Under the pieces are notes generated by a model. It saw nothing but the letters and a program-made list of their open reading frames with translations, did no database searches and was not told where the DNA came from. The position numbers and the translations under genes are program-made. Positions 3,410 to 42,135 of a stretch of DNA of 42,135 nt are shown in pieces. This stretch comes from Thermincola carboxydiphila (GTDB lineage: Bacteria; Bacillota; Thermincolia; Thermincolales; UBA2595): positions 1 to 42,135 of the forward strand of contig JAENZX010000032.1 of assembly GCA_016841045.1 (NCBI GenBank). The letters run 5' to 3'. Numbering within the stretch: position 1 is the stretch's first letter; every line of letters begins with the position of its first letter.

Positions 3410-3424
3410 TTTAAGCACCTCCTT
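3407..3424 (-). promoter_or_regulatory. Ribosome binding site with apparent ATT start for the SLH gene
   Basis: On the minus strand AAGGAGG (3424-3418) is followed after 8 nt by ATT (3409-3407). The in-frame GTG at 3418 shares a base with the SD itself and is too close. No other ATG, GTG or TTG lies in frame before the signal peptide. The neighbouring lipoprotein gene has the same layout (GGAGGTG, six bases, ATG), which supports ATT as the initiator. A sequencing error or local mutation of ATG to ATT is the alternative. Confidence 0.5.
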
Positions 3425-3603
3425 AATTATTTACTATTAATTTTTAATTTTCGACATAATACCTGTATTTTCCTCTGCATAAGACAAAGTAATTGGGTAA
3501 CCACTTAACAAATAAAGTAGCGCTGTACATTGGACAGATTTGTGTTTTAGTGGTGGAAAAACAACAACAAGCAACTGAACTGTTATTCAGGTTTCTAGTT
3601 TAT

Positions 3604-3650
3604 TTAATAAAAACAAAACTGATGCCCCATGAAATGAGACATCAGTTCTG
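3604..3650 (-). terminator. Rho-independent terminator after the GerMN lipoprotein gene
   Basis: An 8-bp perfect stem, AACTGATG (3617-3624) with CATCAGTT (3640-3647), can extend inward with mismatches towards a GAA loop. On the minus strand it is followed by TTTTGTTTTTATT. It lies about 50 nt beyond the end of the gene at 3701. A T-run on the other side (3657 onward) would also let it act on plus-strand transcripts. Confidence 0.7.
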
Positions 3651-3700
3651 TACATAATTTTTTTTTAAACCTTAGATCTTCTTTGTTTACCGTAGCCCTT

Positions 3701-4282
3701 CTATTTCTCTAGGATATCTTTTGCCGGTGCTATAGGTTCTCCTGTATATCCGTGACCCCATATAGCTTCTTCTGTTTTACCTTCAATCAAAAACTGTACC
3801 TTTTCTATATCTGGCAGTTGTGTAAGAGTATGCGCAACCGATTGTATTGTCATTCTCTCTCCGACACTTCCGCCCCAGTGTTTAGTTTTCATCTCTTCCG
3901 AGAAATTAACAAATGCAACACCATTTACAACTTCCATAGAAATAAGCTTTGCTTCTGAAGGAATAGTCTTGTGCAGTCCTTCTTTTTGTGGTCCCTTTAT
4001 TATTTCTTCAATAAGTATTTGAGCTAAAGGCCGACCACCTCTTGTAACTATCCTTTCTTCAGGCTTCAGATAAAGGGCCTGATCATCCGAAAAATAAAGA
4101 AAAACTGTCTCTTCTTCCAGACTAGGCTTCGGATTGACTGGCGGAGTCGTCTCGTTCTTCTCCGTTACATTGGTATCACTTTTTTCCGGCTTTAAATCCG
4201 TGCTACTGTTAAATAAGGTACACCCGGCAGTGAAACTAAGCAAGAGTATCATGATAACCCCTATGAAATTTTTCCATTTCAT
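3701..4282 (-). CDS. GerMN-domain lipoprotein
   Basis: The protein has 193 residues. A lipoprotein signal peptide ends in the lipobox SFTAGC, so it should be anchored outside the membrane. A polar, Lys/Glu/Pro-rich linker (about residues 23-55) leads to a GerMN (sporulation/spore germination) domain with the typical LYFSDDQALYLKPEER opening and a VNGVAFVNFSEE segment. B. subtilis GerM, with two such domains, works in sporulation and germination; this one has a single domain. I chose the ATG at 4282 because it lies 8 nt from GGAGG; a GTG nine bases upstream is inside the SD. It follows the kinase gene by about 70 nt in the same direction and is probably co-transcribed, linking this two-component system to the envelope or to sporulation. 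Confidence 0.85.
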   Translation of the reverse strand: MKWKNFIGVIMILLLSFTAGCTLFNSSTDLKPEKSDTNVTEKNETTPPVNPKPSLEEETVFLYFSDDQALYLKPEERIVTRGGRPLAQILIEEIIKGPQKEGLHKTIPSEAKLISMEVVNGVAFVNFSEEMKTKHWGGSVGERMTIQSVAHTLTQLPDIEKVQFLIEGKTEEAIWGHGYTGEPIAPAKDILEK

Positions 4283-6725: not shown

Positions 6726-7837
6726 CTAAATTTCCCTCCCTGATTTTCAGGCAGCCCCCGTATTTTAGCTACAAGCAATGTGAGGGAAGGCAGCAAAAAC
6801 TCACCTGGAATCGTATAGAACGGCCAGATATTACTAGCTGAAGAGACTTGTTCCATAGTCGAATCGGCTATCAATATGGTAAAAGAGATAATGAGAATTC
6901 CCATGGGAAGTATCAGTGGTCCATAGGAACGCAGACTAAATAAATGGGCTGTACCCAATAAAGTTGCATAATAAAAAAGGCTGATCTTTATAAAAAATGT
7001 AACTAACAGCACTACTGCAACAAATATTTCCAGCCGGGTTATGATTTTAGCTATGTTTATTAATCGTACTGCTTCAAAAGAGGGTTGTGATATGATGGTA
7101 ATAGTATTTCCGAGTACAGCTATGTCTCGAAATGTTACTGTTAACAACGTTATCGCTCCTATTAGTAATCCCAGCATGAAAGAGCTTTTTGCATGTTTTA
7201 TCTTATTCAAATAAGGCATGACCATAAGAAACACCGCTGTTTCGCCAAAAGGAATGGCTGCCATAACATGGGTACCATGGATGAAATCCTTCAGAGGAGT
7301 TACAAAAACCGGTAAAAAATTGGTTAACTTCATGTCTTGCAGTAATAAAACGAAGGTAGATCCAACTATTACCGTTGTAACTACAACGAATATAATATTA
7401 CACCGGGCAATAACTTCTATCCCAGACCTTACTGCCCAGGAGCAGACAAAAGTAAACATAATTAATACTGCTATCATGGGAGTTTCCGGCAAAACGTAAG
7501 TTAGTATGAAATCCCCAAGATACCGCAAATTAGCAGCGGATAATGATAAAAAAAACAGTAGATAAAATGCAGAAAACAGTTTACCCAAATAGGGTCCATA
7601 AATAAGATCATTGATCTGGACCAGGTTTTTGCCGGGGAACTTTTGCACAAGGGCTATATATACTAAGGCAAAGGGTATACTGATTGCCAAGCCTGTTAAA
7701 ACAACCAGCCAGGTATCATGTCGAGTCACCCCATAACTAAAGGTTACTGTTAAAGTAGAACCCTGGATAAAACCGACTATTAACAACACTAATTGTGAAC
7801 TTGATATTTGCCCTTTTTCTATCTGCATCAATATCAC
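6722..7837 (-). CDS. gerXB: Germinant receptor B subunit, GerAB/ArcD-like transporter
   Basis: The protein has 371 residues and about ten hydrophobic segments over its whole length. It matches the GerAB branch of the APC amino-acid transporter superfamily, including the opening IEKGQISSSQLVLLIVGF and the usual 360-370 residue size. In spores it sits in the inner membrane and forms the germinant-sensing channel part of the receptor with the A and C subunits. The GTG at 7837 overlaps the last base of the gerXC stop. A TTG at 7831 or an ATG at 7828 gives more normal spacing to AAGGA, so the true start may be 6-9 bases downstream. The germinant cannot be predicted from the sequence. Confidence 0.92.
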   Translation of the reverse strand: MILMQIEKGQISSSQLVLLIVGFIQGSTLTVTFSYGVTRHDTWLVVLTGLAISIPFALVYIALVQKFPGKNLVQINDLIYGPYLGKLFSAFYLLFFLSLSAANLRYLGDFILTYVLPETPMIAVLIMFTFVCSWAVRSGIEVIARCNIIFVVVTTVIVGSTFVLLLQDMKLTNFLPVFVTPLKDFIHGTHVMAAIPFGETAVFLMVMPYLNKIKHAKSSFMLGLLIGAITLLTVTFRDIAVLGNTITIISQPSFEAVRLINIAKIITRLEIFVAVVLLVTFFIKISLFYYATLLGTAHLFSLRSYGPLILPMGILIISFTILIADSTMEQVSSASNIWPFYTIPGEFLLPSLTLLVAKIRGLPENQGGKFR

Positions 7838-24457: not shown

Positions 24458-25786
24458 TTACATTTTACCCATCAGTAAATCAGGGAGGAAGGTAGAGAGT
24501 TCAGGAAATGCGATCATAATTGCAGTCGCTATAGATGATGCCAATACAAAGGGCCATACTCCTCTGAAAACATCCTCCAAAGGTACATCCTTGATTACAC
24601 CCTTGATAACATAGGCATTGATACCTACAGGTGGAGTGATTACTCCGATACAGGTTACCATTACGATAACGACGCCGAACCAAATAGGGTCATAGTGCAG
24701 TACATTTGTTACAATAGGGAAAAAGATAGGGATAGTCAGCAAAATCAGCGGAATCATTTCAACAATGCAACCACCAATTAGGTAAACCAGAAAAATAATC
24801 ATCATAACAAAGAAACGAGGCATATCCAGCTCGCTGACCCAGGCAGCAAGTTCGAAGGGCATCCGGCTAAGGGCTATAAAGCGGCTGAAAATCATTGCCC
24901 CGGCAACCAGGAAAAGAATCATAGCCGAAGACCGGGTTGTATCTCTCAGGGAATTGTTAAAAGCCTTAAAGTTCATCTTGCGGGTGATAAGAGTTACCAC
25001 AAGAACCCCGAACGCTCCCACACCGCCGGCCTCAGTAGGCGTAAAGAAACCCATAAACATACCGCCGAGGGAAATGATGAAAATAACAAGAACTTCTAAT
25101 AAGCCACCCTTTAAGGTGTCAAACATTTCTCTCACAGTTGGCCTCGGACCCGGTCTGGCCGGAGCAAGTTCAGGGTTACGCTTGCTAAGAATATAGATGG
25201 TCAGGCAATAGGCAAGGGTTAATAAAGCTCCAGGCACAATACCAGCTATTAAGAGGCGAGCAATGGACTGTTCAGTGGCAATACCGTAAACAACAAAAAT
25301 AACACTGGGTGGGATCAGAATGCCTATGGCACCTCCGGCAGCTACACTGGCTGTAGAGAGAGAATCACTATATTTGTATTTCCTCATTTCCGGAACGGCA
25401 ATGGAGCCAATTGTAGCAGTGGTGGCGGTACTGGAACCGCAAACGGCTCCAAAGATGGCACAGGCCACTTCACTGGCCATTGCCAATCCGCCGGGAAGGT
25501 GTCCCACAACCTTATAAGCGAAAGCATACAGCTGGGATCCTATACCTGCATGGTAGGCCAGGAACCCCATTAAACTAAAGGTTACAATTACACTTAGATT
25601 GTAAGAAGCGAAGTTGCCAAAAATTTCGGAAGACAGAACCTTGAAGGCAGCGTCTGAAGAATTCACGAAACTAAAACCGATTAGGCCGGCTAAACCCATC
25701 GATACCGCAATGGGCATACGGAGCATCATGAGAACCAGAAACCCCGCTATTCCAAGAAAACCTACCATCATTGGACTCATTTCCAT
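24458..25786 (-). CDS. dctM: TRAP transporter large permease, DctM family
   Basis: The protein has 442 residues and about 12 hydrophobic segments over its whole length. Family motifs include FLGIAGFLVLMMLRMPIAVSMG near the N-terminus, GAVCGSSTATTATIGSIAVPEM, IGILIPPSVIFVVYGI and GVITPPVGINAYVIKG. It is the ion-driven transport channel of the TRAP (C4-dicarboxylate-type) system, working with DctQ and the binding protein DctP. It is the last gene of dctP-dctQ-dctM and is 14 nt after dctQ. The start ATG follows GGGGGATTCAAA. TRAP systems import organic acids; the divergent Mo hydroxylase suggests an aromatic or heterocyclic acid, which is inference. Confidence 0.95.
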   Translation of the reverse strand: MEMSPMMVGFLGIAGFLVLMMLRMPIAVSMGLAGLIGFSFVNSSDAAFKVLSSEIFGNFASYNLSVIVTFSLMGFLAYHAGIGSQLYAFAYKVVGHLPGGLAMASEVACAIFGAVCGSSTATTATIGSIAVPEMRKYKYSDSLSTASVAAGGAIGILIPPSVIFVVYGIATEQSIARLLIAGIVPGALLTLAYCLTIYILSKRNPELAPARPGPRPTVREMFDTLKGGLLEVLVIFIISLGGMFMGFFTPTEAGGVGAFGVLVVTLITRKMNFKAFNNSLRDTTRSSAMILFLVAGAMIFSRFIALSRMPFELAAWVSELDMPRFFVMMIIFLVYLIGGCIVEMIPLILLTIPIFFPIVTNVLHYDPIWFGVVIVMVTCIGVITPPVGINAYVIKGVIKDVPLEDVFRGVWPFVLASSIATAIMIAFPELSTFLPDLLMGKM

Positions 25787-25800
25787 TTTGAATCCCCCTT

Positions 25801-26331
25801 TTAACTGATTAGATCATCAACTTTGATATTATCTTCGGATTTTGCATCTGTAACAGGGTTTAAAAACAAGCTGGATAGAGACTTGCTCAGTCCGTTAATT
25901 ACCACTAACAGGTAAGCGGCAACACCGGCTGTTACCAAATAAACTATCGGGTAAATGGGCATACCCGTGGTCAGGGCAATTTCACCAGATTGCTGCATTT
26001 CCTGCCCATATTTTATAAGCTGCCAGGTGGTCAAGCCCAGGAAGCCCGCAACCAGTAAGTCAATCAAAAGGAATATGACCTGCTGCAATTTTTCTGGTAA
26101 CTTATCAGTAAAAAAGGTAACGGCTACGTGACCTCCGTGAAAAGCGCATAAAGCCAGACCCATTCCTACACCAAGTGCAGTTAGATACTGGACAATTTCC
26201 ACTGAGCCTCTGAGGGATGAGCCAAACAAGCGCATGATAACGTTAAGGGTAGTGACGAACATGATGGACGCAACGGCTATACGTGCGCCCATATCCAACA
26301 ATTGGCTCGTCTTCTCCACAAATTTATTCAT
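25801..26331 (-). CDS. dctQ: TRAP transporter small permease, DctQ family
   Basis: The protein has 176 residues from the ATG at 26331 and four membrane segments. Its features are IMFVTTLNVIMRLFGSSLRGSVEI, LTALGVGMGLALCAFHGGHVAV and a C-terminal helix pair, typical of DctQ. It helps DctM to fold and function. An in-frame GTG at 26349 is part of the SD region and was rejected. The gap of about 95 nt to dctP contains a GCGCCTG/CAGGCGC hairpin. Confidence 0.93.
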   Translation of the reverse strand: MNKFVEKTSQLLDMGARIAVASIMFVTTLNVIMRLFGSSLRGSVEIVQYLTALGVGMGLALCAFHGGHVAVTFFTDKLPEKLQQVIFLLIDLLVAGFLGLTTWQLIKYGQEMQQSGEIALTTGMPIYPIVYLVTAGVAAYLLVVINGLSKSLSSLFLNPVTDAKSEDNIKVDDLIS

Positions 26332-26371
26332 AGTATTTTCACTCCTCACCCACTTCTATATTAGGCAAATA

Positions 26372-26397
26372 GCGCCTGCATGTAATTCTACAGGCGC
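26372..26397 (-). promoter_or_regulatory. Intercistronic hairpin between dctP and dctQ
   Basis: The 7-bp stem GCGCCTG (26372-26378) pairs with CAGGCGC (26391-26397) around a 12-nt loop. There is no T-run, so it is more likely an mRNA processing or stabilising structure, or a partial terminator, than a full stop. Such a structure would raise binding protein over permease, which is the usual need in TRAP systems. Confidence 0.5.
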
Positions 26398-26425
26398 AAT
26401 CTGCCTTATCTACGTCAGCAGCTTA

Positions 26426-27523
26426 TTATTTAGTATAGGGAGCCTTTTCGGGATATTGAGCATTATACTTTTCAGCCAGTTCTTTAACGCCTTTAACTAT
26501 GTCAGCGCCATTTAATCCTTTTTCGTTAAGAGTTTTGATGTATTGGTCTTCTAAAGGCTTAAGCTTTGCCAACCAATTTGCTTTCTCAGCATCAGAGAGT
26601 GTTATTACTTCAACCTTTTTCTTTGCTTTTGCATCATCCAAGCCGCCTTTGTCAATGCTGTTAAACCATGGAGCCATTACTTCTTTTACGTATTTCTCAT
26701 TAACTTCTGTAATGGCTTGCTGAACATCAGCCGGCAATGAATTCCACTTTTCATTGTTCATAGTTAAGAAGAACGCCTGGTTATAAAGGAACGGGGTCAG
26801 AGTAATATAGTCGCCAGTAACTTCACCAAGCCTAAACCCTTTAAAAGTTTCCAGAGGTGCTACGCCCCCCTGCATAATCCCTTTACTTAAGGATTCATAC
26901 CACTCGGGCATCGGCTGTACTACCGGGCTTGCACCCAGAAGGCCTACGGCGTCTGCCCTTAAGCCTGCAGTAGCACCAAGTTGGAGACCCTTGATGTCAG
27001 CCAATGTGCGAATGGCTTTCTTGGTAAAGAGGTCACCAGGGCCTGCAGCAAAACTAAACATCTGGTGGGTATCTTTTAACTCTTCAGGGTCAAACTTTTC
27101 AATTCCTTCCATCAATGCTTCAGTAGCAGCCTCAGAGTTGTTCCATTCAATTCCGGGAAGCAGGAAGGTTTCAACTACCGGGAAACGTCCCCTGTTGTAC
27201 GCATATACTGAGAGACCCATGTCTACTACGCCTTTAACTACACCATCATAAGTTTCCGCGGCAGGAACCAATGTACCGGCAGGGAAGCTGGTAATTTTTA
27301 CCCTACCATTGGTAGCCTTGTCAATTTCTTCAATATATCCTTTGATAATTTTGGTTTCCATTTCATGTGTTGCTGGCCAGAAATGAGCCAGGTTCAATTT
27401 AATAGTTTCTGCTTTATCAGCATTGGCACCTTTTTCTGATTGACCACCGCAACCAGCAAGTACTACAATAAGACCTAACAACAATATTGAAAACAAAAAA
27501 ACTTTCTTTAAATGTTTAAACAT
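26426..27523 (-). CDS. dctP: TRAP transporter substrate-binding lipoprotein, DctP family
   Basis: The protein has 365 residues. A signal peptide ends in the lipobox VVLAGC, so the binding protein is membrane-tethered, as usual in Gram-positive bacteria. DctP-family features follow: LNLAHFWPATHEMETKI, GRVKITSFPAGTLVPAAETYDGVVKGVVDMGL, and GVAPLETFKGFRLGEVTGDY around the site where an Arg usually holds the substrate carboxylate. It delivers an organic anion to DctQM. The long extra C-terminal helix (to residue 365) is within family range. Its promoter region shares an operator-like element with the divergent hydroxylase operon and iclR. Confidence 0.94.
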   Translation of the reverse strand: MFKHLKKVFLFSILLLGLIVVLAGCGGQSEKGANADKAETIKLNLAHFWPATHEMETKIIKGYIEEIDKATNGRVKITSFPAGTLVPAAETYDGVVKGVVDMGLSVYAYNRGRFPVVETFLLPGIEWNNSEAATEALMEGIEKFDPEELKDTHQMFSFAAGPGDLFTKKAIRTLADIKGLQLGATAGLRADAVGLLGASPVVQPMPEWYESLSKGIMQGGVAPLETFKGFRLGEVTGDYITLTPFLYNQAFFLTMNNEKWNSLPADVQQAITEVNEKYVKEVMAPWFNSIDKGGLDDAKAKKKVEVITLSDAEKANWLAKLKPLEDQYIKTLNEKGLNGADIVKGVKELAEKYNAQYPEKAPYTK

Positions 27524-27920: not shown

Positions 27921-27968
27921 GATTGGTTTTACTCCTGTGTCTGCCATCTAGTTAAAGGAGGTTTGTTC

Positions 27969-28868
27969 ATGTATACACCCGATTTTGATTATTACGCTCC
28001 CCAGACGGTACAAGAAGTCTGCAGTCTATTGACTCAGTTCGGGAGCAAGGCCAAAATACTTTCCGGCGGGACAGATCTAATGGTCAAACTGAAGCATGGC
28101 ACTATCGATTACGAAGTATTAATTTCTCTGAAAGAACTCAATGAACTTAAAGGAATTACCTATCAGGAGGGCAAAGGTGTGGTTGTAGGTGCCAGGACCA
28201 CTCACAACGACCTGGTCAATTCAGACATCTTAAATGAAAAGTACCTTTCTATTTCAGAAGCTGCCCACCACATGGCAGGAAATCAGATCAGAAATATTGG
28301 GACGATTGGGGGAAATATCGTCAATGCCGTTCCTTCTGCTGATCTTCCTCCTATTTTTATCGCTCTTGGAGCCATTGTTACAATATTAGGGCCGGAAGGT
28401 GAAAGAACTGTGCCCCTGGAAGATTTCTTCACCGGTCCTGGTAAAACTGTACTGGCTCAGAATGAAATTGTTACTTATATTACTATTCCTGACCAGCCTA
28501 CTACCGGTTCCAATTATATAAAGTTCGGTCTGCGTCGTTCCGGTGCTCTGGCCGTGGTAGGAGTAGCTTCATCAGTTACTATGGAAGGCAATATTATTAA
28601 AGATGCGCGGATAGCGCTTGGTGCCGTAGCCCCTGTACCAATGCGGGCTAAAAATGCAGAAGCAGCACTAATTGGCAAAGAATATACTGATGAACTTCTG
28701 GAGCAGGCCGGCGTGGCAGCCTCTCAGGAATGTTCACCTATTTCCGACATCCGTGGTTCCGCGGAGTACCGCCGCGATATGGTTAGAGTCTTCACCAAGC
28801 GTTCCCTGAAGGCTTCTATAACTAAGGGCCACAGCGGAGAACATCTGGAAACAGAACACGGCAAATAG
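27969..28868 (+). CDS. Molybdenum hydroxylase FAD-binding subunit
   Basis: The protein has 299 residues. The FAD_binding_5 domain is recognised by AKILSGGTDLMVKLKHG and HHMAGNQIRNIGTIGGNIVNA. A CO_deh_flav_C domain follows (LRRSGALAVVGVASSV to the end). The subunit takes electrons from the iron-sulfur subunit. The 4Fe-4S loop of about 40 residues that marks the beta subunit of 4-hydroxybenzoyl-CoA reductase is absent: after the GTIGGN motif the sequence runs straight on (VPSADLPPIFIALGA). The ATG at 27969 is 7 nt from AAAGGAGG; a TTG six bases earlier is too close. It is the first gene of the hydroxylase operon, 25 nt before the iron-sulfur subunit. Confidence 0.94.
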   Translation: MYTPDFDYYAPQTVQEVCSLLTQFGSKAKILSGGTDLMVKLKHGTIDYEVLISLKELNELKGITYQEGKGVVVGARTTHNDLVNSDILNEKYLSISEAAHHMAGNQIRNIGTIGGNIVNAVPSADLPPIFIALGAIVTILGPEGERTVPLEDFFTGPGKTVLAQNEIVTYITIPDQPTTGSNYIKFGLRRSGALAVVGVASSVTMEGNIIKDARIALGAVAPVPMRAKNAEAALIGKEYTDELLEQAGVAASQECSPISDIRGSAEYRRDMVRVFTKRSLKASITKGHSGEHLETEHGK

Positions 28869-28893
28869 TTTTCTTATTAAAGGAGGTTCACTT

Positions 28894-29400
28894 ATGCAGG
28901 CAATTGTTGATAAAGAGGGTATTAAACGCTACCTGATTTCCCTCACAGTTAATGGAGATACCTATACCGTAGTTGTAAAAGCAAATACCATGCTCGTAAA
29001 TGTACTGAGAGAAGAATTAAACTTGACCGGAACCAAAAAAGGCTGTGAAACAGGAGACTGCGGTTCCTGCACAGTTATCATGGATGGAAAGCCGGTTAAC
29101 TCCTGCATCATCCTGGCATTAGAAGCTGACGGTAAGGAAATCACCACCATAGAGGGCGTAGCCCAAAACGGAGTGTTGGATAAATTACAGGAATCATTTT
29201 TAAATCAAACCGCAGTTCAGTGCGGTTACTGTACCCCTGGCATGATTCTCTCCGCCAAAGCGCTGCTGACCCGTAATCCCAACCCCACCGAACATGAAAT
29301 TCGTGAAGCCATTGCAGGCAACCTTTGCCGCTGCACCGGCTATGTTAATATTGTCAAAGCCATTAAGGAAGCTGCCGGGCAACCGGTTGACGAACACTAA
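28894..29400 (+). CDS. Molybdenum hydroxylase [2Fe-2S] subunit
   Basis: The protein has 168 residues. A plant-type ferredoxin domain has the cluster motif GCETGDCGSCTV and a fourth Cys in VNSC. The C-terminal helical [2Fe-2S] domain has CGYCTPGMILSAKALL and LCRCTGYVNIVKAI. It carries electrons from the Mo centre to FAD. The ATG follows AAAGGAGG with 7 nt spacing. The next gene begins 15 nt after the stop. Confidence 0.96.
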   Translation: MQAIVDKEGIKRYLISLTVNGDTYTVVVKANTMLVNVLREELNLTGTKKGCETGDCGSCTVIMDGKPVNSCIILALEADGKEITTIEGVAQNGVLDKLQESFLNQTAVQCGYCTPGMILSAKALLTRNPNPTEHEIREAIAGNLCRCTGYVNIVKAIKEAAGQPVDEH

Positions 29401-29414
29401 AGAGGGGTGAAAAA

Positions 29415-31736
29415 ATGAGCGAGAATACTATTCATAACAATGACTATGCCGTTATCGGCAAAAGTGTGCCCAGAATAGACGGGCGGGAAAAGGTTACCGG
29501 GGCAGCCAAATATACCGGAGATTTAAAATTCCCCAACATGCTTTATGGTAAGATCCTAACCAGTCCCCACGCCCATGCCAGAATTCTCAGCATCGATACC
29601 AGTGAGGCAGAGAAACTTGCTGGTGTAAAAGCAGTTATTACTCACAAGGATGTACCCTCCCTGAAATACGGGATTAGCCCAGCTCGCTGGGATGAGAATA
29701 TCTTCTGCATTGACAAGGTCCGTTTCGTAGGTGATAAAGTAGCTGCTGTAGCCTGTATTGATGAGGAAACCTGCTACAAAGCCCTAAAACTGATTAAGGT
29801 AGAGTACGAGGTTCTACCGGCAGTCCTGGATCCTCTCACTGCCATGGATGAAGGGCAACCCCTTGTACATGAAGAGTATGAACGTAATATTAACACTGAA
29901 ATTCATCAGGAATTTGGTGATATGGAAAATGCCTTCAAAAATGCCCATCATATCCGCAAAGACCGTTTTGTGGGACAGCGGACTTACCAGAGCCCTATTG
30001 AGCCCCACTCGGCCATCTCCATGTGGCAGGATGGAAAGTTAACCATTTACTCAAGCACCCAGTCACCTCATTACTTCCAATACTACATCGCCCGTGAATT
30101 CGGCATGAAGATGGGTGATGTACGGATTCTAAAAACTTATGTAGGCGGCGGTTTTGGTGGCAAACTGGAACCTACCGGTCTGGAGTTTGCTGGCGCTGTA
30201 TTGGCCAAAAATACCGGACGCCCTGTCAAGATGTTTTATGATCGTGCTGAAATGTTTGCCCACAACCGTGGTCGTCATGCCCAGTACATGGAGATAACCT
30301 CAGCAGTGGACAAAGACGGTAAAATTCTAGGCTGCCACACAAACTTCATTATGGACGGTGGCGCCTATACTAGTCTGGGTATTGCCAGCGCATATTATGC
30401 AGGAGCGCTGCTTCCCCTAACCTACGAATTCGATAACTACAAGTTTGATATGTTCAGAGTATATACCAACCTTCCGGCTTGCGGCGCCCAGCGTGGTCAT
30501 GGTGCACCGCAACCTAAGTATGCCTTCGAATGCCATCTGGATGAAATAGCCAGAGACCTGAACATAGACCCTCTGGAAATCCGGATTCGTAATGCCCGTA
30601 GACCTAACACTGTAACTCCAAACGATTTTGGCATCAACTCCTGTGAAATTAAGTCCTGCTTGGAAAGAGCAGGGGCTATGTCCGGTTGGGCTGAGAAGAA
30701 AGGTAAGCTTCCTAAAGGAAGAGGAATTGGCGTCGCTACTGGAAGCTTTGTATCCGGTGCCGGCTATCCCATTTACCGCACCAACCTGCCTCACGCCTCT
30801 GCAATGATAAAAGTTCATGAGGACGGTACTGCCGCCACCCTCTATACAGGTGCAGTAGATATCGGCCAGGGTTCAGACACAGTTCTCAGCCAGATGGCTG
30901 CTGAAGCTATGGGCTTCGTATATGAGCAGATGAAAATAGTTGCCGCTGATACAGAAACCACACCTCATGACTTCGGTGCCTACGCTAGTCGGCAGACCCT
31001 AATGTCTGGTGCTGCTGTTAAGCAGGCTGGTGAAGAAGTAAAACGACAACTCTTGGATATGGCTGCATCCATGCTTCAACGTCCTGTTTACGACCTGGAT
31101 GTCAAAGCAGGAGAGATCTTTTCCATATCTGATTCGTCCGTAAGCCTTAGCTTCAGCGACGCTGCCCGGGAGTTCTTCGTCCGCAGAGGTCCCCTAGTAG
31201 GAAAAGGTTCTTATACTCCTCCTAAACTGGGTGGTAAATTCAAAGGGGCAGCCGTTGGAACCTCACCTGCCTACAGCTTCTGTGCCCAGGTCAGTGAGGT
31301 TCAGATTGATGAGGAAACCGGTGTAATTGATGTGCTGGATGTATGGGATGTCCATGACTGCGGTATGGTTATTAACCCAGGTCTGCTTCACGGACAGGTG
31401 CATGGTGCCCTTTTCATGGGATTGGGCGAATCCATATGGGAGCAGGTATTATTTGATGACAAAGGAAAGATAGTTAACGCCAACCTGGCTGAATACCGTC
31501 TGCCCACTGCCTTAGATATGCCCAAGGTACACTCCGGCCTTATTGATAGTTATGAACCAGCTGGACCTTGGGGTGTAAAAGAGGTTGGTGAAGGATCAAC
31601 TAATCCCACTATGGGCTGCTTCGCTAATGCTATCTACGATGCTATGGGTGTTAGAATCAACAGTCTACCTCTAACTTATGAAAAGGTCTGGAGGGCTTTG
31701 AAAGAAAAGCGCGAGAAAGAACAGGCGCAAAAGTAA
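29415..31736 (+). CDS. Molybdenum hydroxylase Mo-binding catalytic subunit (xanthine dehydrogenase family)
   Basis: The protein has 773 residues, normal for stand-alone catalytic subunits. It contains the Ald_Xan_dh_C small domain (about 18-130) and the Mo cofactor domains with GGGFGGKLEP, GAQRGHGAPQPKYAFE, TGAVDIGQGSDTVLSQMAAEAMG and YASRQTLMSGAAVKQAG. The catalytic base is Glu726 in KEVGEGS. It should hydroxylate an aromatic heterocycle, aldehyde or CoA-thioester, or reduce one, using Mo bound to a cytosine dinucleotide pterin. Co-located yqeC and mocA suggest that maturation includes MCD formation and perhaps the labile selenium seen in some clostridial purine and nicotinate hydroxylases. 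The lack of a 4Fe-4S insert in its FAD partner argues against 4-hydroxybenzoyl-CoA reductase. The exact substrate is unknown. Confidence 0.94.
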   Translation: MSENTIHNNDYAVIGKSVPRIDGREKVTGAAKYTGDLKFPNMLYGKILTSPHAHARILSIDTSEAEKLAGVKAVITHKDVPSLKYGISPARWDENIFCIDKVRFVGDKVAAVACIDEETCYKALKLIKVEYEVLPAVLDPLTAMDEGQPLVHEEYERNINTEIHQEFGDMENAFKNAHHIRKDRFVGQRTYQSPIEPHSAISMWQDGKLTIYSSTQSPHYFQYYIAREFGMKMGDVRILKTYVGGGFGGKLEPTGLEFAGAVLAKNTGRPVKMFYDRAEMFAHNRGRHAQYMEITSAVDKDGKILGCHTNFIMDGGAYTSLGIASAYYAGALLPLTYEFDNYKFDMFRVYTNLPACGAQRGHGAPQPKYAFECHLDEIARDLNIDPLEIRIRNARRPNTVTPNDFGINSCEIKSCLERAGAMSGWAEKKGKLPKGRGIGVATGSFVSGAGYPIYRTNLPHASAMIKVHEDGTAATLYTGAVDIGQGSDTVLSQMAAEAMGFVYEQMKIVAADTETTPHDFGAYASRQTLMSGAAVKQAGEEVKRQLLDMAASMLQRPVYDLDVKAGEIFSISDSSVSLSFSDAAREFFVRRGPLVGKGSYTPPKLGGKFKGAAVGTSPAYSFCAQVSEVQIDEETGVIDVLDVWDVHDCGMVINPGLLHGQVHGALFMGLGESIWEQVLFDDKGKIVNANLAEYRLPTALDMPKVHSGLIDSYEPAGPWGVKEVGEGSTNPTMGCFANAIYDAMGVRINSLPLTYEKVWRALKEKREKEQAQK

Positions 31737-35702: not shown

Positions 35703-35760
35703 CACTTGTCTTGACACGTATCTACGCACATGTCTTCATACACACCTTTGCACGTGTTAT
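35703..35760 (-). repeat. 24-bp imperfect tandem repeat upstream of the FMN-binding protein gene
   Basis: Units begin at 35703 (CACTTGTCTTGACACG), 35727 (CACATGTCTTCATACACA) and 35751 (CACGTGTTAT), exactly 24 bp apart; the third is partial. They fill the short gap between the isomerase stop and the next start codon. They could be binding sites or simply slippage-derived sequence. Confidence 0.6.
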
Positions 35761-36812
35761 TTTCTTTGTGAATATCTGCTGATTTCTACTCCCCTCCGCA
35801 AAAGCCATTCAGCGGTAAAACCGGTTATGATAACAGGCTTTTCTGTCAATTCTGGAAGATCTACAGCACCTGTCATCAGCATTGTATTACGCAAATCATT
35901 TATGATGTCGTCAATTCGTTCATTTAGACCTTGCTCCAGACCATCTGAAAACACCTCTAAGAAATGACCTGCAATGCCTACCAGCTTAGACCCCAAAGCC
36001 AGGGCACAGGCAACATCAGTTCCACCTGTAAAACCACCTGAGGCTATGATATTTAAAGGCGCTTCCAAACTTAAAGCTTCTATTAGGCTGCACGCTGTGG
36101 TAATGCCGATGTTCTTAAATTTTCCATTGTGATCCCGACCTGAGCGCATATATTCTATCTTAATAAAATCAGTTCCGCCTTTACCTCCAACGTCAACATA
36201 CTCTACCCCAATATCACATAGTTTCCTGACAGTCTCACGGGATAGACCAAATCCGACCTCTTTAAGTATAACTGGAACTGGTGACTGGTGGACAATCCTT
36301 TCTATATTCGCTAAGGCACCGCTGAATTTTCTATCTCCCTCAGACATAGCCAGTTCCTGTGCCACATTCAAATGCAATTGCAAGGCATCTGCTTCAATCA
36401 TAGAAATGGCCTCTTTTGCCATATCCGACGAAGCAAAAGCACTGATATTTGCTATCAATATGCCGTCAGGATTCTCATCCCTGGCGATTTTATAAGTGTC
36501 CCTAACTTCTGAATCTTCCAGTCCGGCAGTCTGGGATCCAACTGCCATTGCAATTCCTGTTTGGGATGCAACCCTAGCCAGACTACGGTTAACCTGTTTT
36601 ACATCAGGATGACCACCAGTCATAGCATTAATCAGCAGTGGAGCCTTTAACTTCTTGTTCAGAAAATCGAGAGACGTATCAACCTGATTTAGGTCTAATT
36701 CAGGTAATGCCTCATAAACCAGGTAAATATCTGAAAAACCGTTTTCAACTGGGTATTGTGCAGTCTTCAAAGCAAATTCAATGTGATCTTTTTTTCGGTT
36801 TTGCCTGGATAT
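35757..36812 (-). CDS. fni: Type 2 isopentenyl-diphosphate isomerase (FMN-dependent)
   Basis: The protein has about 351 residues when read from 36812. It has the FMN-binding TIM barrel of Fni: NAMTGGHPD, AVGSQTAGLED, QLHLNVAQELAMSEGDR, KEVGFGLS, GGKGGTDFIKIE and ASGGFTGG. It interconverts IPP and DMAPP. The conserved family N-terminus (RQNRKKDHIEFAL) lies upstream of the first usual start (TTG at 36770), so the true start must be further out. In that frame the only suitable codon is ATA at 36812, 6 nt after AGGGG and 11 nt after AGGAGG. A GTG at 36819 is in another frame and would need a +1 shift at an A7 run (36796-36790 region). DMAPP, as phosphate, is the prenyl donor for prenyl-FMN, the UbiD cofactor, which may explain its place next to UbiD genes. 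Confidence 0.9.
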   Translation of the reverse strand: MSRQNRKKDHIEFALKTAQYPVENGFSDIYLVYEALPELDLNQVDTSLDFLNKKLKAPLLINAMTGGHPDVKQVNRSLARVASQTGIAMAVGSQTAGLEDSEVRDTYKIARDENPDGILIANISAFASSDMAKEAISMIEADALQLHLNVAQELAMSEGDRKFSGALANIERIVHQSPVPVILKEVGFGLSRETVRKLCDIGVEYVDVGGKGGTDFIKIEYMRSGRDHNGKFKNIGITTACSLIEALSLEAPLNIIASGGFTGGTDVACALALGSKLVGIAGHFLEVFSDGLEQGLNERIDDIINDLRNTMLMTGAVDLPELTEKPVIITGFTAEWLLRRGVEISRYSQRK

Positions 36813-36946: not shown

Positions 36947-38299
36947 TTACCTAACTACTTTTAAGGCTTCTTTAGCCCGTGCTAGGCTTTCTGCCGGAAC
37001 TGTGATCTTTTCAAACTTACTCAGATCATCACCCTTTTTGGTTGCGTCAAGTCCAAGCTTGGCTGTAATACTGTCCGGGCCCACCGAAGGATCAATTACA
37101 TACCCTTTAAGGCCGGTAAGTAACAGAATATCCCGGTCGGCCTGAAAGCGAGTGGCCAAAGCCCACTGAACTTCCCTCATATCATATATATTAACATCAT
37201 CGTCTACTACAGTAATCTGCTTTATGCGCGGGTCCATATTCAGTATTAAGGCCATCAGCCGGCGCACTTCGGAAGGAGCTGCTCCCCTAACAGACGCCAC
37301 AGCATGAAAGCTGCATGTACCTGGAGCAAAATTAATATCCACAAAGGTTGGGACCATTTTCTTTAAAAGGCGGATGTTTTCCGCACTGCCGCCTAATGCA
37401 ATTAGCACATCAACTTCTGATCCCCAAACATGAACTGCTTGAAATATAAAATCCTGACGATGGGTTACTGTATGTATTTCAATGACCGGAGAATCACATT
37501 CAAAATAGTGTCCGGTGGCTTCTCCAAAGGGTCCCTCTTTTTCCCTGTAATTGGGTATGACTCGCCCTTCAAGAACAACTTCGGCACGGGCCGGTACCAA
37601 AAGATCCATTGTTTCTGCCCTGGTAAGTTCTATTGCCTCACCCTTTAAACCACCCGCTAAGGCAAATTTATTAGGTCCTTCAGCTGTAGCTTTGACAGTT
37701 GCACCTATTAGTACTGCCGGGTCAACCCCTATTGCAACCGCTACTTCTAAGCCTTTACCAGCGGCTTCAGCCTTCTCCAAAAAAGTAGCCATGGGAGGAT
37801 TAGATAAAAAGATACCCAACCTGTTTCCTCCTTTAAGCTGGACACGGTGAAGACCCATATTCTGCTGCCCCGTCTCGGGATCTTTGGCTGTGGTAATGGC
37901 TGCCGTCATATAAGGACCGGCATCCTTTATATGATAGGTTAAAGCTGGCAGCAAAGAAGGAAGATCAATGTTTTCCTTGATAATGACTTCCTTAACTGGT
38001 CCACCTTCTACTATCCGAGGAGCAATTTCCTGCCCTTTTCGGTCAATGAAACTCTGAGTCAGTGTTTCCTCAGTAACTCCCATTAGCCGAGCTACTCGAT
38101 GCCTGGTGCCCAAAATATTACCCACTACTTTTTTCCCCGGATAGCCGGTAACATTACTAAACTCTACCGCCTTACCGTCATTAAGCAGCTTAAGAGCAGC
38201 AGTTACCTCAAAACGAGGGTTGAGTTCTTCCTTAACTTTAAGGAGTTCTCCTTCGTTTTCGAGAATCTGTAAAAAATCTCTTAAATCACGATAAGCCAT
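36947..38299 (-). CDS. UbiD-family prenyl-FMN-dependent decarboxylase/carboxylase (paralogue 2)
   Basis: The protein has 450 residues. The UbiD fold is shown by MAYRDLRDFLQILE at the N-terminus, MGLHRVQLKGGNR with Arg152, and EKEGPFGEATGHY with Glu255 and Glu260. These give the Arg-Glu-Glu triad of the family, with the same five-residue gap between the glutamates as in Fdc1 and UbiD. It should bind prenyl-FMN and Mn/K and decarboxylate, or with CO2 carboxylate, an unsaturated or aromatic acid. It is a close paralogue of the gene 34 nt upstream: long stretches and all motif positions are identical. Clear changes, e.g. GLKGEAIELTRAET against GIKGEAIELTPAET, show they have diverged. It is the last UbiD gene before the isomerase. 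Confidence 0.94.
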   Translation of the reverse strand: MAYRDLRDFLQILENEGELLKVKEELNPRFEVTAALKLLNDGKAVEFSNVTGYPGKKVVGNILGTRHRVARLMGVTEETLTQSFIDRKGQEIAPRIVEGGPVKEVIIKENIDLPSLLPALTYHIKDAGPYMTAAITTAKDPETGQQNMGLHRVQLKGGNRLGIFLSNPPMATFLEKAEAAGKGLEVAVAIGVDPAVLIGATVKATAEGPNKFALAGGLKGEAIELTRAETMDLLVPARAEVVLEGRVIPNYREKEGPFGEATGHYFECDSPVIEIHTVTHRQDFIFQAVHVWGSEVDVLIALGGSAENIRLLKKMVPTFVDINFAPGTCSFHAVASVRGAAPSEVRRLMALILNMDPRIKQITVVDDDVNIYDMREVQWALATRFQADRDILLLTGLKGYVIDPSVGPDSITAKLGLDATKKGDDLSKFEKITVPAESLARAKEALKVVR

Positions 38300-38332
38300 G
38301 TATACCCGCCTCCCTATTTAATAATTATTCAA

Positions 38333-39691
38333 TTAAATACCCCCGCTGGCCTTCAATGCCTCTCTGGCCCTGGAGATACTTTCTTCAGGCATGGTAATCT
38401 TTTCAAATTTATCTAAGTCTTCACCTTTTTTAGTGGCATCCATCCCGATTTTGGCTGTAAAGCCATCAGCTCCAACAGAAGGATCAATTACATAACCCTT
38501 TAGACCAGTCAGCAAAAGTAAATCCCGGTCAGCCTGGAATCTGGTAGCCAGAGCCCACTCAACCTCACGCATGTCAAAGATATTCACATCATCATCTACA
38601 ACGATGATGTTTTTAATCCTCTGGTCCATGCTGAGTATAAGGTTCATAAGCTTGCGCACCTCTGCAGTAGTTGCCCCCTGTACAGATGCAACAGCATTAA
38701 ACATGCACGTGCCAGGTGAAAAGTTAATATCCTTTAGAGACGGAACCATTCTCTTCAAAGAAGAAATATTTTCAGTACTTACCCCCAAAGTCAAAATAAC
38801 ATCAGGTTCTGTACCCCACACCTGTATATTATGATAAATAAACTCCCGCCGATGAGTAATTGTATGAATTTCAATCACTGGATTTTCGTATTGAAAATAA
38901 TTTCCTGTGCTCTCTCCAAAAGGACCTTCCTGCTCCCTTAAACCTGGAATAATTCGTCCCTCAAGAATTATTTCAGCTCGAGCTGGAACTAGCAGATTTG
39001 ATGTTTCTGCAGGGGTAAGCTCAATTGCTTCACCTTTTATCCCTCCGGCTGCAGCAAATTTGTCTGGTCCTTCAGCCGTCGCTTTTGTCATGGCCCCCAG
39101 AATGATAGCAGGATCAACACCAATAGCTATTGCCACTTCCAATCCCTGGCCTACAGATTCTGCCCGCTGCCAGAACGTTGCTATGGGGGGGTTAGCCAGC
39201 AGCGAACCCAACCTGTTACCGCCTTTAACCTGAATGCGGTGAAGCCCCATATTCTGCATTCCTGTCTCCGGGTCTCTGGCTATTATGATAGCTGATGTAA
39301 AATAAGGGCTAACGTCTTTTTCATGATAGGTTAAGACAGGTATCAGGGAAGGCAAGTCAATGTTTTCCCTGATAATGACTTCCTTAACCGGAGCTTCTTT
39401 TACCACCAGGGGATTTATTAGCTGACTCTTCCGGTCGATAAAGCTCTGAGTTAGTGTCTCCTCAGGTACGCCCATTAACCGGGCTATTCTGTGCCGAGTC
39501 CCTAAAACATTGCATACTGCCGCTTTCCCCGGATAGCCGATAATGTTATCAAACTTCACTGCTCTAGTGTCGTTAATTACCTTCATGGCAGCTGATAACT
39601 CGAAACGGGGATTGAGTTGTTCCTGAACTGTAAGTAGTTCTTCTTCCTCTTCGAGGATTTTAAGGAAATCTCTTAAATCACGGTAAGCCAT
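38333..39691 (-). CDS. UbiD-family prenyl-FMN-dependent decarboxylase/carboxylase (paralogue 1)
   Basis: The protein has 452 residues. It shares the whole length and all motifs with the next gene: MGLHRIQVKGGNR with Arg152 and REQEGPFGESTGNY with Glu255 and Glu260. The pair therefore looks like a tandem duplication. The two probably form homo- or hetero-oligomers, as PpcA and PpcB do in phenylphosphate carboxylase. The ATG has GGGGGAGGAGG upstream. A GC-rich hairpin lies between this gene and the small subunit gene upstream. The substrate is not readable from sequence. Confidence 0.94.
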   Translation of the reverse strand: MAYRDLRDFLKILEEEEELLTVQEQLNPRFELSAAMKVINDTRAVKFDNIIGYPGKAAVCNVLGTRHRIARLMGVPEETLTQSFIDRKSQLINPLVVKEAPVKEVIIRENIDLPSLIPVLTYHEKDVSPYFTSAIIIARDPETGMQNMGLHRIQVKGGNRLGSLLANPPIATFWQRAESVGQGLEVAIAIGVDPAIILGAMTKATAEGPDKFAAAGGIKGEAIELTPAETSNLLVPARAEIILEGRIIPGLREQEGPFGESTGNYFQYENPVIEIHTITHRREFIYHNIQVWGTEPDVILTLGVSTENISSLKRMVPSLKDINFSPGTCMFNAVASVQGATTAEVRKLMNLILSMDQRIKNIIVVDDDVNIFDMREVEWALATRFQADRDLLLLTGLKGYVIDPSVGADGFTAKIGMDATKKGEDLDKFEKITMPEESISRAREALKASGGI

Positions 39692-39719
39692 AGTTAACCT
39701 CCTCCCCCAGTATAATTAA

Positions 39720-39744
39720 GCGCCGGAGGATAACCCCCCGGCGC
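39720..39744 (-). promoter_or_regulatory. GC-rich intercistronic hairpin between the small subunit and UbiD genes
   Basis: The stem GCGCCGG (39720-39726) pairs with CCGGCGC (39738-39744) and can extend inward by GG/CC. It lies 8 nt after the small subunit stop and about 30 nt before the UbiD start. With no T-run it is probably a processing or attenuation element that sets the ratio of upstream to downstream subunits. Confidence 0.5.
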
Positions 39745-39751
39745 CTCTTGT

Positions 39752-40012
39752 TTAGAGGTATTTCTGAGGAAACTTATTTACTTCCCCTAATACCTGTATT
39801 GAATAAGCGTTTTCATAAGCCTGTCCACGACCAAATCTTATCTGCAGCTTTTGTGGATAAGTATCTGGGTTAGCGGACACTTTGGCCTTTACCCATTTAT
39901 ATGCGTATTTATGAATACCAGGGGCCAAGTCCCGCACCTGGAGTTCCATTTCCTGGTCCTCCTTTAATTCATCTAGTTCTTTTACAAAAATATCGTAGTT
40001 GTACATATTCAT
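39752..40012 (-). CDS. Small protein resembling phenylphosphate carboxylase gamma subunit (PpcC-like)
   Basis: The protein has 86 residues, mostly polar, with no membrane segment and no cysteine. Sequence landmarks are YDIFVKELDELKEDQEMELQ, LAPGIHKYAYKWVKAKV and RFGRGQAYENAYSIQVLGE. Its size and its position directly after a PpcA/B-like UbiD gene and before another UbiD gene match the gamma subunit of phenylphosphate carboxylase in phenol-degrading bacteria (gene order B-C-A-D). I recognise it by size and context more than by any motif, so the call is moderate. It begins 7 nt after the upstream UbiD stop, which indicates coupled expression. Confidence 0.62.
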   Translation of the reverse strand: MNMYNYDIFVKELDELKEDQEMELQVRDLAPGIHKYAYKWVKAKVSANPDTYPQKLQIRFGRGQAYENAYSIQVLGEVNKFPQKYL

Positions 40013-40019
40013 CGCCTCC

Positions 40020-41459
40020 TTATTTTCTATTAAAGCCCCAGTCTGCCCAGCGAGCCAATACCTTTTCCTGAATGTCTTGAGGATAGATAGTTTTAAAGGA
40101 TACTAATCTAGGCAGGTCATTCTTATCCCAATCAACGGGGAAGGTGCAGTCAAACAGAACCTTTGGCCCCTTAGACCATGTACGCTCAAATTTGGTAGCA
40201 AAGGGATTAAGCGGAGTTCCTACGCCATCCCATACATGAATTCCATCTTTGGGGTGACAACGGGTAGTGAAGGCGTGGAAAACCTCAGCATAATTGTATA
40301 TGTCAATACTGTCGTCTACTACCACCACCTGATGGAACCAAGGCCCTAATTTACTTCCAAAGGCCAGCTGTGCTATTTGAGCTGCGATGTTGGAGTAAAT
40401 CGGTTTTACACCAACCACCATCATATGATGTGTCGACTCGGGAGGCATAAAGACACCGGTGATGGGAATCCCCTGGCTGCGCAGTAATTTTTCTAACTCA
40501 AGTCCTAATGAGAATGATCTTAACAGCTGTCCCTCATCTGTAGGAACTCCCATGTTGGAGATAGTAGTAATTGGATCATTCCTGTATGTAATACAGTTAA
40601 CTCTATATACTGTACGGGGCTCACGGGGTGAGGTACGGTAGCCTGTATATTCACCAAAAGGAGCTTCATCAAGTTGGAAATCCGGTAGGATCTCACCCTC
40701 AATGATTATCTCAGCATGAGCAGGAACTTCCAGGTCACAGGTCTCACATTTAACTAGTTCAACTGACTCTCCCATCATTAAGCCGGCCAGTTCGGGCTCA
40801 GGTATTGAGGATGGAGCACAGGATGCAATTGCAGAAATAGGATCCGGACCAATTACCATAGCGAATGGCAGTGTCTTACCTCTAGGTGCACATTTACCAT
40901 GAAGCATCTTACCCATGTCGGAGAAGGGCAGTACTGGTCCTACCATTGTCTTGGAGTCATAAACCATGGTACGGTACATACCCCAGTTTACATCACCGTT
41001 ATCGGGGTCTTTGGCCACGATAAAATGCCAGGTCCCAAGATAGCGCCCACCGTCACCTTCATGAACCATAGGTGCAGGCAGCTTTAACAAATCTACATCG
41101 TTACCAGTTATAATATTCTCTTTGCAGGGGGCCTCCGATTTATCTAAAATTTTTGGGGCGGGAGGATTACCCTTTGTCCTTTTGAGATATTCATCAGCAA
41201 TTTCGGGTATAGAAGAATTTGGATCGAGACCGAGTACAGTCGCCAGTCGAGGGTATGTAGCTATTGGAGCCCCGAAGTAACGGTGTCCAGGATAATCTTT
41301 GATATTTTCCATTACAGGCGAAGGCGCTTTGTCCTCACAAACTTTACGCACGATGGCGCCTGCTTCCATATCCCAATCAATTTCCTCTTTAATTCTTACA
41401 AGGTCGTTATTCTTTTCCAGAGCAGCAATATATTCTCTATTATCCTTATAGTATTTCAT
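40020..41459 (-). CDS. UbiD-family carboxylase subunit (PpcA/PpcB-like)
   Basis: The protein has 479 residues from the ATG at 41459, which is 7 nt from AAAGGAG; a start seven codons earlier overlaps the SD. It has the UbiD motifs WGMYRTMVYD with Arg163 and LDEAPFGEYTGY with Glu265 and Glu270. Additional matches to the PpcA type are DNGDVNWGMYR and GVPTDEGQLLRSFSLGLELEKLL. It is distinct from the two 450-residue paralogues downstream. With the PpcD-like gene just upstream and the PpcC-like gene just downstream it forms a D-A-C block. A PpcA-like and a second subunit are also implicated in benzene carboxylation by Peptococcaceae, an alternative to phenol carboxylation. Other aromatic substrates are also possible. 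Confidence 0.9.
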   Translation of the reverse strand: MKYYKDNREYIAALEKNNDLVRIKEEIDWDMEAGAIVRKVCEDKAPSPVMENIKDYPGHRYFGAPIATYPRLATVLGLDPNSSIPEIADEYLKRTKGNPPAPKILDKSEAPCKENIITGNDVDLLKLPAPMVHEGDGGRYLGTWHFIVAKDPDNGDVNWGMYRTMVYDSKTMVGPVLPFSDMGKMLHGKCAPRGKTLPFAMVIGPDPISAIASCAPSSIPEPELAGLMMGESVELVKCETCDLEVPAHAEIIIEGEILPDFQLDEAPFGEYTGYRTSPREPRTVYRVNCITYRNDPITTISNMGVPTDEGQLLRSFSLGLELEKLLRSQGIPITGVFMPPESTHHMMVVGVKPIYSNIAAQIAQLAFGSKLGPWFHQVVVVDDSIDIYNYAEVFHAFTTRCHPKDGIHVWDGVGTPLNPFATKFERTWSKGPKVLFDCTFPVDWDKNDLPRLVSFKTIYPQDIQEKVLARWADWGFNRK

Positions 41460-41473
41460 ATACAGTCTCCTTT

Positions 41474-42013
41474 CTACCATCCTTTATTCATAATCTTGTC
41501 GCAAAACTTATCCCATTTGCCCTGGGTCCTAAGTATAAACTCACCCAGTTCACGGACAACACCTTTACCACCGGCTTTTTCAGTGATAAAATCGGCTATC
41601 TCCAGAACATCAGGTTTTCCATCAGAGGGGGCTACTGCAAAACCTACTCTTTTCATAACCCCCATGTCGATTATTTCGTCACCTACAAAGCATACTTCTT
41701 CGTCAGTAATATTTAACTCCTCAAGAAGTTCCATATATTTACCGACTTTTTCCTTGGTCTGATAGAATCTTTTGATGCCAATATCATTCATCCTGTTTTC
41801 AGTTGCCTTTGACTTACGAGTAATTACAGCCATTTCAATCCCTGAAGCCATTAAAGCATTTGCTCCAAATCCGTCTTCGTGATTGAATACACGGTAACGA
41901 CCGCCTTGAGCGTCATAAATTACATCATTAGTGGTTAGCACTCCGTGAACATCCAGTATAATCAGCTTAATTTTTTTGGCCTTTTCTGCTGCCAGGCTTA
42001 AATCTTTTTGCAT
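41474..42013 (-). CDS. HAD-superfamily protein, phenylphosphate carboxylase delta subunit/KdsC-like
   Basis: The protein has 179 residues. HAD motif I is LDVHGVLT with nucleophile Asp21, motif II is ITRKS with Thr65, the conserved Lys lies in TKEKVGKY and motif IV is GDEIID. The type matches KdsC (KDO-8-P phosphatase) and PpcD. In KdsC the residue two after the nucleophile is an Asp acting as acid-base; here it is His23, which should lower or change phosphatase activity. In phenylphosphate carboxylase the delta subunit acts with the UbiD subunits on the phosphorylated substrate. The ATG follows GGGGAG. The stop is 14 nt before the next start. No phenylphosphate synthase gene is visible in the window. 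Confidence 0.82.
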   Translation of the reverse strand: MQKDLSLAAEKAKKIKLIILDVHGVLTTNDVIYDAQGGRYRVFNHEDGFGANALMASGIEMAVITRKSKATENRMNDIGIKRFYQTKEKVGKYMELLEELNITDEEVCFVGDEIIDMGVMKRVGFAVAPSDGKPDVLEIADFITEKAGGKGVVRELGEFILRTQGKWDKFCDKIMNKGW

Positions 42014-42056
42014 AATCTTACTCCCCTTTCGAATCTATAATCGGTAACCTAAATCA

Positions 42057-42135
42057 TTAATCTTCAAATCCATATTCTTTCCAACGTTTCTGAACTTGTT
42101 CTGCCATTGCATCATCCAGCTTGATTTCAATCGGT
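42057..42135 (-). CDS. C-terminal end of a further UbiD-like gene (partial, runs off right edge)
   Basis: On the minus strand the last 25 codons can be read from the edge and end KRWKEYGFED and stop. The intact UbiD protein at 40020 ends with a similar LARWADWGFNRK, so this is probably a fourth UbiD-family subunit, upstream of the PpcD-like gene. The visible part is too short for a firm call. The 43-nt gap to the PpcD-like start points to the same operon. Confidence 0.5.
   Translation of the reverse strand, partial: PIEIKLDDAMAEQVQKRWKEYGFED

Follow-up and report, generated by a model that had tools for sequence, protein, structure and literature searches.

A phenylphosphate carboxylase gene cluster of Thermincola carboxydiphila without phenylphosphate synthase and with a candidate UPF0261 phenol kinase

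Anaerobic phenol breakdown is accepted to begin with phenylphosphate synthase, whose genes serve to recognise phenol degraders. The phenylphosphate carboxylase that follows is known, in Thauera aromatica, to work by dephosphorylation and carboxylation. The Thauera synthase phosphorylates phenol (PMC6114531), and the third UbiD and the UbiX of such clusters have been named PpcX and PpcY, respectively (PMC5946492). Here we analysed a 42,135-nucleotide stretch of Thermincola carboxydiphila DNA (the window), which is the entire contig C37 of a draft genome of 4.16 Mb in 75 contigs (G000). Its right end is part of a genuine phenylphosphate carboxylase (ppc) cluster. The arrangement of the genes is a known one; what sets the cluster apart is the absence of a synthase (PpsAB) and the presence of a pair of UPF0261 genes. 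The genes at this end are probably the downstream portion of a cluster for anaerobic phenol carboxylation, in which the UPF0261 pair, instead of PpsAB, would phosphorylate phenol.

Five open reading frames were found where the original prediction had placed them, on the minus strand, in one direction and with short gaps, together with the end of a further gene at the contig edge:

42057 to 42134, minus strand: 3′ end of ppcB2 (UbiD family, PpcB), truncated at the contig end; 25 codons and a stop fit PpcB C-termini
41474 to 42013, minus strand: ppcD2, HAD-family phosphatase subunit, 179 aa; 155.6 bits on the PpcD model TIGR02726, below its cut-off of 281.95
40020 to 41459, minus strand: ppcA, UbiD-family subunit, 479 aa; 748.3 bits on TIGR02723 (cut-off 564.6); PpcA clade
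39752 to 40012, minus strand: ppcC, small subunit, 86 aa; 89.7 bits on PF09662 (Phenyl_P_gamma; cut-off 25)
38333 to 39691, minus strand: ppcX1, third UbiD, 452 aa; 329.9 bits on TIGR00148, over the cut-off; PpcX clade
36947 to 38299, minus strand: ppcX2, tandem ppcX copy, 450 aa; 70.9% identical to ppcX1; closest solved structure HmfF at 38.5% identity

The intergenic gaps are ∼43 nt (ppcB–ppcD), 14 nt (ppcD–ppcA), 7 nt (ppcA–ppcC), 60 nt (ppcC–ppcX1) and 33 nt (ppcX1–ppcX2). For ppcA the best start is the ATG at 41459, preceded by AAAGGAGA, and not position 41480 as given previously. The truncated fourth UbiD is a real gene end, and it proved to be PpcB and no further unknown paralogue: positions 42134 to 42057 code for PIEIKLDDAMAEQVQKRWKEYGFED followed by a stop codon, matching the C-termini of PpcB proteins. 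Neither RNA families nor an excess of promoters or terminators was found in the operon.

The identity of the subunits agrees with a phenylphosphate-carboxylase-type locus carrying extra UbiD genes, as had been proposed. On the PpcA model the window protein (motifs NWGMYR and EAPFGE) scores higher than the PpcA of Syntrophorhabdus (748.3 versus 642 bits). The PpcB gene is split across contigs, and its N-terminal fragment on contig C9 reaches 193.7 bits on TIGR02724 (146 residues) compared with 68.5 on the PpcA model; full-length homologues in two other genomes, G259 and G125, pass the PpcB model with 730 and 781 bits. The original prediction had named a lack of similarity between the 86-residue protein and PpcC profiles among its refuting outcomes; instead, the protein matches PF09662, while staying below the cut-off of the stricter TIGR02725, and ppcC occupies the same position in most ppc clusters compared. 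PpcC is predicted to have an all-beta fold. A fold search with the predicted structure gave no significant solved relative, leaving a link to the LpdD chaperone unsupported. The HAD protein, likewise read as PpcD-like from its TIGR02726 match, is 80% identical to a second ppcD copy on C9. The D-x-H-G motif is common to the window PpcD and all 26 PpcD proteins aligned; we therefore rejected the idea that its unusual D-x-H marks a broken phosphatase.

The genes upstream of the window were reconstructed from contig overlaps. Contigs C49 and C9 each end within a PpcB-type UbiD gene preceded by ubiX. Both end in the same 55 bases, and the first 55 bases of C9, which opens with the end of a second ppcB, are identical to the right edge of the window. 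Another broken gene, running from C61 into C49, likewise has an overlap of exactly 55 nt, so that this figure appears to be the assembler word length. Exact overlaps of this length at contig ends are the mark of a collapsed repeat, here estimated at ∼0.9 kb and not found in the assembly. Most simply, the path would run C49, repeat, C9, repeat, C37; alternatively, C9 would be circular. On the joined path, the order in the direction of transcription is regulator, ubiX1, ppcB1, ppcD1, UPF0261a, UPF0261b, PaaK-type ligase, riboflavin kinase, ubiX2, ppcB2 and the window genes. Looking to the right of the window, as the original prediction had proposed, thus yielded ubiX and a PaaK-type ligase on overlapping contigs, and no ppsAB genes. 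The regulator has XylR_N and V4R domains, and its N-terminus matches the MobR phenol-regulator model. Three of these genes lie on C9 at the following positions:

C9 (L022) 676 to 1908: UPF0261, first copy
C9 (L022) 2501 to 3733: UPF0261, second copy, 98.3% identical to the first
C9 (L022) 6988 to 7386: archaeal-type CTP-dependent riboflavin kinase, PF01982

An identical stretch, collapsed in the assembly, seems to be common to the two ppcB copies; together with the near-identical UPF0261 copies, this points to recent duplication or gene conversion within the cluster.

A comparison with about 20 loci led us to reject the earlier suggestion that the gene order is new. B-D-A-C with a UbiD behind it, and often ubiX and riboflavin kinase next, is found repeatedly in Deltaproteobacteria and in a number of Bacillota. 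Syntrophorhabdus shares this order, with ppcC undetected (its locus L062 has the same B-D-A order). The present cluster shares PpcA, PpcB, PpcD, the third UbiD (PpcX) and UbiX with the pps-ppc clusters of Thauera aromatica and Syntrophorhabdus, and PpcC with Thauera and most relatives. It differs from those two in having ubiX, ppcB, ppcD and ppcX in two copies each and a pair of UPF0261 genes that belong to a separate subtype, in a genome without PpsA or PpsB. A protein with a PAC_bac domain (PF21758, bacterial proteasome-assembling-chaperone-like) was seen near several ppc clusters (L062 6008-6430, L113 3284-3700 and L114 6942-7328); by analogy, it may have a role like that of LpdD, a prenylated-flavin chaperone structurally resembling such chaperones.

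The absence of phenylphosphate synthase, first noted for the locus, extends to the whole genome. Standalone PpsA and PpsB were absent from G000, and its PEP (phosphoenolpyruvate)-utilizer proteins are full-length PEP-synthase-like enzymes of the rifampicin phosphotransferase type, enzymes like pyruvate phosphate dikinase, and fragments of these. A short frame on contig C74 with a phosphohistidine domain was considered as a PpsA remnant and rejected, as it is very similar to the end of a protein of the rifampicin phosphotransferase type. PpsA and standalone PpsB were also absent from two other Bacillota genomes, G057 and G259, whose ppc clusters carry UPF0261 directly upstream of ppcB-ppcD-ppcA-ppcC. 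A third, G448, has the same arrangement; its sole PpsAB-like pair is encoded at another site, next to carboxylase genes. An assembly artefact in G448 is disfavoured because the arrangement lies on a 581 kb contig. None of the three has pps genes in the cluster, and their UPF0261 proteins are 62 to 63% identical to the present copies; they differ from our cluster in having single gene copies.

In the 17 Bacillota that bear ppcC, the two gene sets followed a mutually exclusive pattern. The ppc cluster contains a close UPF0261 gene and lacks the synthase in four of them, and 13 have a synthase and no close UPF0261: all 13 carry PpsB, without any UPF0261 protein more than 39% identical to the C9 copies. 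UPF0261 proteins at least 60% identical to the C9 copies were confined to G000, G057 and G259 among 398 Bacillota, and were also found in G448, always inside the ppc cluster.

What the UPF0261 proteins might do is suggested by a solved relative. Both copies are complete and retain almost every conserved residue, and the C9 protein passes the cut-offs of PF06792 and PF23189 (the N- and C-terminal domains). The closest solved structure is PDB 9mpy (phmmer E = 1.2e-71 over residues 3-395), a UPF0261 protein (Saro_1862) of Novosphingobium aromaticivorans with bound acetovanillone; the predicted fold is of moderate quality (pLDDT 68.6), and its structure search retrieved 9mpy immediately. Acetovanillone breakdown in N. 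aromaticivorans starts with a single-component kinase, MarK, while Rhodococcus and Sphingobium use two-component kinases (PMC13101465); the Rhodococcus enzyme HpeHI is a homologue of phenylphosphate synthase (PMC9618137). Judging from species and ligand, MarK is probably Saro_1862. If so, the two pathways would share a kinase family and the phosphorylation of a phenolic hydroxyl before carboxylation; they differ in that the related acetovanillone pathways use a biotin-dependent carboxylase and not a UbiD enzyme, and the kinases are distant.

Genomic context agrees. UPF0261 genes adjoin PpsAB-like and carboxylase-like genes in G448 and in a further genome, G328, and a Syntrophorhabdus gene (L128 8313-9872) fuses UPF0261 to a PEP-utilizer swivel (mobile) domain next to a PpsA gene. 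UPF0261 is thus associated with the phosphorylation and carboxylation of phenolic compounds. From homology and context, a phenol kinase that stands in for the synthase is the favoured reading of UPF0261 in this cluster, with about an even chance of being right. The same chance applies to a wider reading, in which this single protein took over from the multi-subunit phenylphosphate synthase separately in two lineages of anaerobic Bacillota.

The third UbiD raises a different possibility. The original prediction of three complete UbiD proteins with intact Arg-Glu-Glu residues held, each having three UbiD Pfam domains, the arginine and both glutamates. It had also proposed a UbiD tree including AbcA; ours, of 82 proteins without AbcA, places PpcA in the PpcA clade, and ppcX1 and ppcX2 pair up within a PpcX clade whose sister is HmfF (support 96/93). 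The two tandem ppcX genes represent a duplication at this locus. Both PpcX proteins (motifs NMGLHR and EGPFGE) have the same R-E-E residues as HmfF, a UbiD-family decarboxylase (PDB 6h6v/6h6x) and their closest solved relative, and differ from it in sequence and in sitting in a ppc operon. A search for the E-x-P-F-G-E glutamate motif found none in the PpcX of several Deltaproteobacteria (L056, L057, L060 and L064), where PpcX may, from its sequence, be a non-catalytic partner. With the R-E-E residues retained, PpcX1 and PpcX2 together with UbiX might carboxylate phenol directly, as a reversed 4-hydroxybenzoate decarboxylase and without phosphorylation, leaving PpcBDAC as helpers or for another substrate. 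For Syntrophorhabdus, direct carboxylation of phenol by PpcX has been proposed, and in Cryptanaerobacter 4-hydroxybenzoate decarboxylase genes were inferred to serve phenol carboxylation (PMC5946492). However, the retention of two ppcD phosphatase genes is easiest to understand if a phosphate ester is formed, and PpcX groups with HmfF and not with phenolic acid decarboxylase, while the missing motif in some Deltaproteobacteria suggests an accessory role. We consider direct carboxylation unlikely.

The choice of phenol as substrate comes from neighbouring genes. Two further groups lie to the left in the window:

27963 to 31736, plus strand: three-subunit molybdenum hydroxylase, read as 4-hydroxybenzoyl-CoA reductase (FAD subunit 27963-28868, 2Fe-2S subunit 28894-29400, Mo subunit 29415-31736)
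24458 to 27523, minus strand: TRAP (tripartite ATP-independent periplasmic) transporter genes DctM, DctQ and DctP, from Pfam matches; adjoins the reductase genes

The Mo (alpha) subunit passes TIGR03194 (1166.4 bits, cut-off 994.55), and its gene lies 5 kb from the ppc genes. The beta and gamma subunits stay below their reductase models (TIGR03195, 133.7 of 404.55; TIGR03193, 191.6 of 257.8), and these small subunits score higher on xanthine or glyceraldehyde dehydrogenase models; for the FAD subunit (27963-28868), xanthine dehydrogenase models match far better than the reductase beta model. The phenol cluster of Desulfatiglans anilini also includes a phenylacetate-CoA-ligase-like gene and 4-hydroxybenzoyl-CoA reductase genes (PMC6114531). 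Because the alpha gene passes a curated cut-off so close by, phenol is indicated as substrate, and the suggestion of another aromatic compound becomes unneeded. The most economical reading is phenol to 4-hydroxybenzoate to benzoyl-CoA, in which both substrate and direction of carboxylation follow from gene content. Cresol, catechol, aniline or benzene would be quite unlikely alternatives. A related synthase/carboxylase acts on aniline in D. anilini (PMC7500099), the AbcA protein found in benzene degraders is homologous to PpcA (PMC13101534), and the presence of two UbiX-PpcB-PpcD modules could reflect two substrates. Against this stand the nearby reductase and the window PpcA, which outscores its Syntrophorhabdus homologue on the PpcA model; moreover, PpcB and PpcC are present here, whereas the abc cluster, compared by description only, is given as abcA, abcD, bzlA and ubiX (PMC13101534). 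The TRAP transporter could possibly take up aromatic acids. Eight more full UbiD genes occur in G000 (contigs C64, C73, C75 (three), C29, C42 and C36), several beside ubiX, CoA ligases and transporters, and suggest a broad aromatic-acid specialist.

Several observations weigh against phenol activation by UPF0261 in a phenylphosphate carboxylase pathway. PpcD falls below its strict cut-off, as given above, and so does PpcC (86.7 bits on TIGR02725, cut-off 135.55); the Syntrophorhabdus PpcD homologues score 111 and 128, and the G259 PpcC homologue, in the same position, is likewise under its cut-off (92.2 bits). The cluster UPF0261 proteins are distant from 9mpy, the equation of Saro_1862 with MarK is indirect, and the swivel domain of the Syntrophorhabdus fusion has lost its catalytic His (GGPLST). 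Pps and UPF0261 occur together in Syntrophorhabdus. In 57 other genomes of the sample, UPF0261 proteins are present whose identity does not exceed 42%, which means that the family serves other roles as well. The exclusive pattern of four versus 13 genomes (Fisher p = 0.0004, uncorrected for kinship) overstates the evidence because the four positive genomes represent only two independent lineages. Clear benzoyl-CoA reductase genes were not found in the genome; HGD-D protein pairs on contigs C35 and C42 were rejected as candidates, since hydroxyisocaproyl-CoA dehydratase models match them best and no curated cut-off was reached. Finally, full-length PEP-synthase-like genes exist in the genome, including one spanning C61/C49 and one at C36:46498, and rifampicin-phosphotransferase-type chemistry is related to that of PpsAB. 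Such an enzyme, encoded elsewhere, might phosphorylate phenol and leave another role to UPF0261. However, all these genes stand beside unrelated genes, with none in or near the ppc cluster, and the tight UPF0261 pattern would go unexplained; we regard this as very unlikely.

Under phosphorylation by the UPF0261 pair, phenol would first be phosphorylated on its hydroxyl, probably by the two proteins as MarK-like single-component kinases. The HAD phosphatase subunit PpcD would then take off the phosphate and pass phenolate to the UbiD-type PpcA/PpcB, which with PpcC would add CO2 to form 4-hydroxybenzoate. The PaaK-type ligase would convert this product to its CoA ester, which the molybdenum enzyme encoded nearby would reduce to benzoyl-CoA. 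UbiX and riboflavin kinase are predicted to supply prenylated flavin, for which the PF01982 kinase probably makes FMN. This kinase lies beside ubiX in many ppc clusters (also L056, L057, L060, L062, L063 and L064). A type 2 isopentenyl-diphosphate isomerase gene (35757-36770, minus strand; TIGR02151 over cut-off) lies 176 nt past ppcX2 on the same strand and could provide the dimethylallyl group for prenylated FMN.

If pps genes are the marker for phenol degraders, genomes with ppcBDAC and without pps would be overlooked or misread. Should a UPF0261 kinase take the place of the synthase, a largely uncharacterised family found in many bacteria would gain a concrete role. If, in addition, the product is ADP rather than AMP, the ATP cost of phenol activation falls, and anaerobes short of energy may spend less on this step than the two-subunit dikinase requires.

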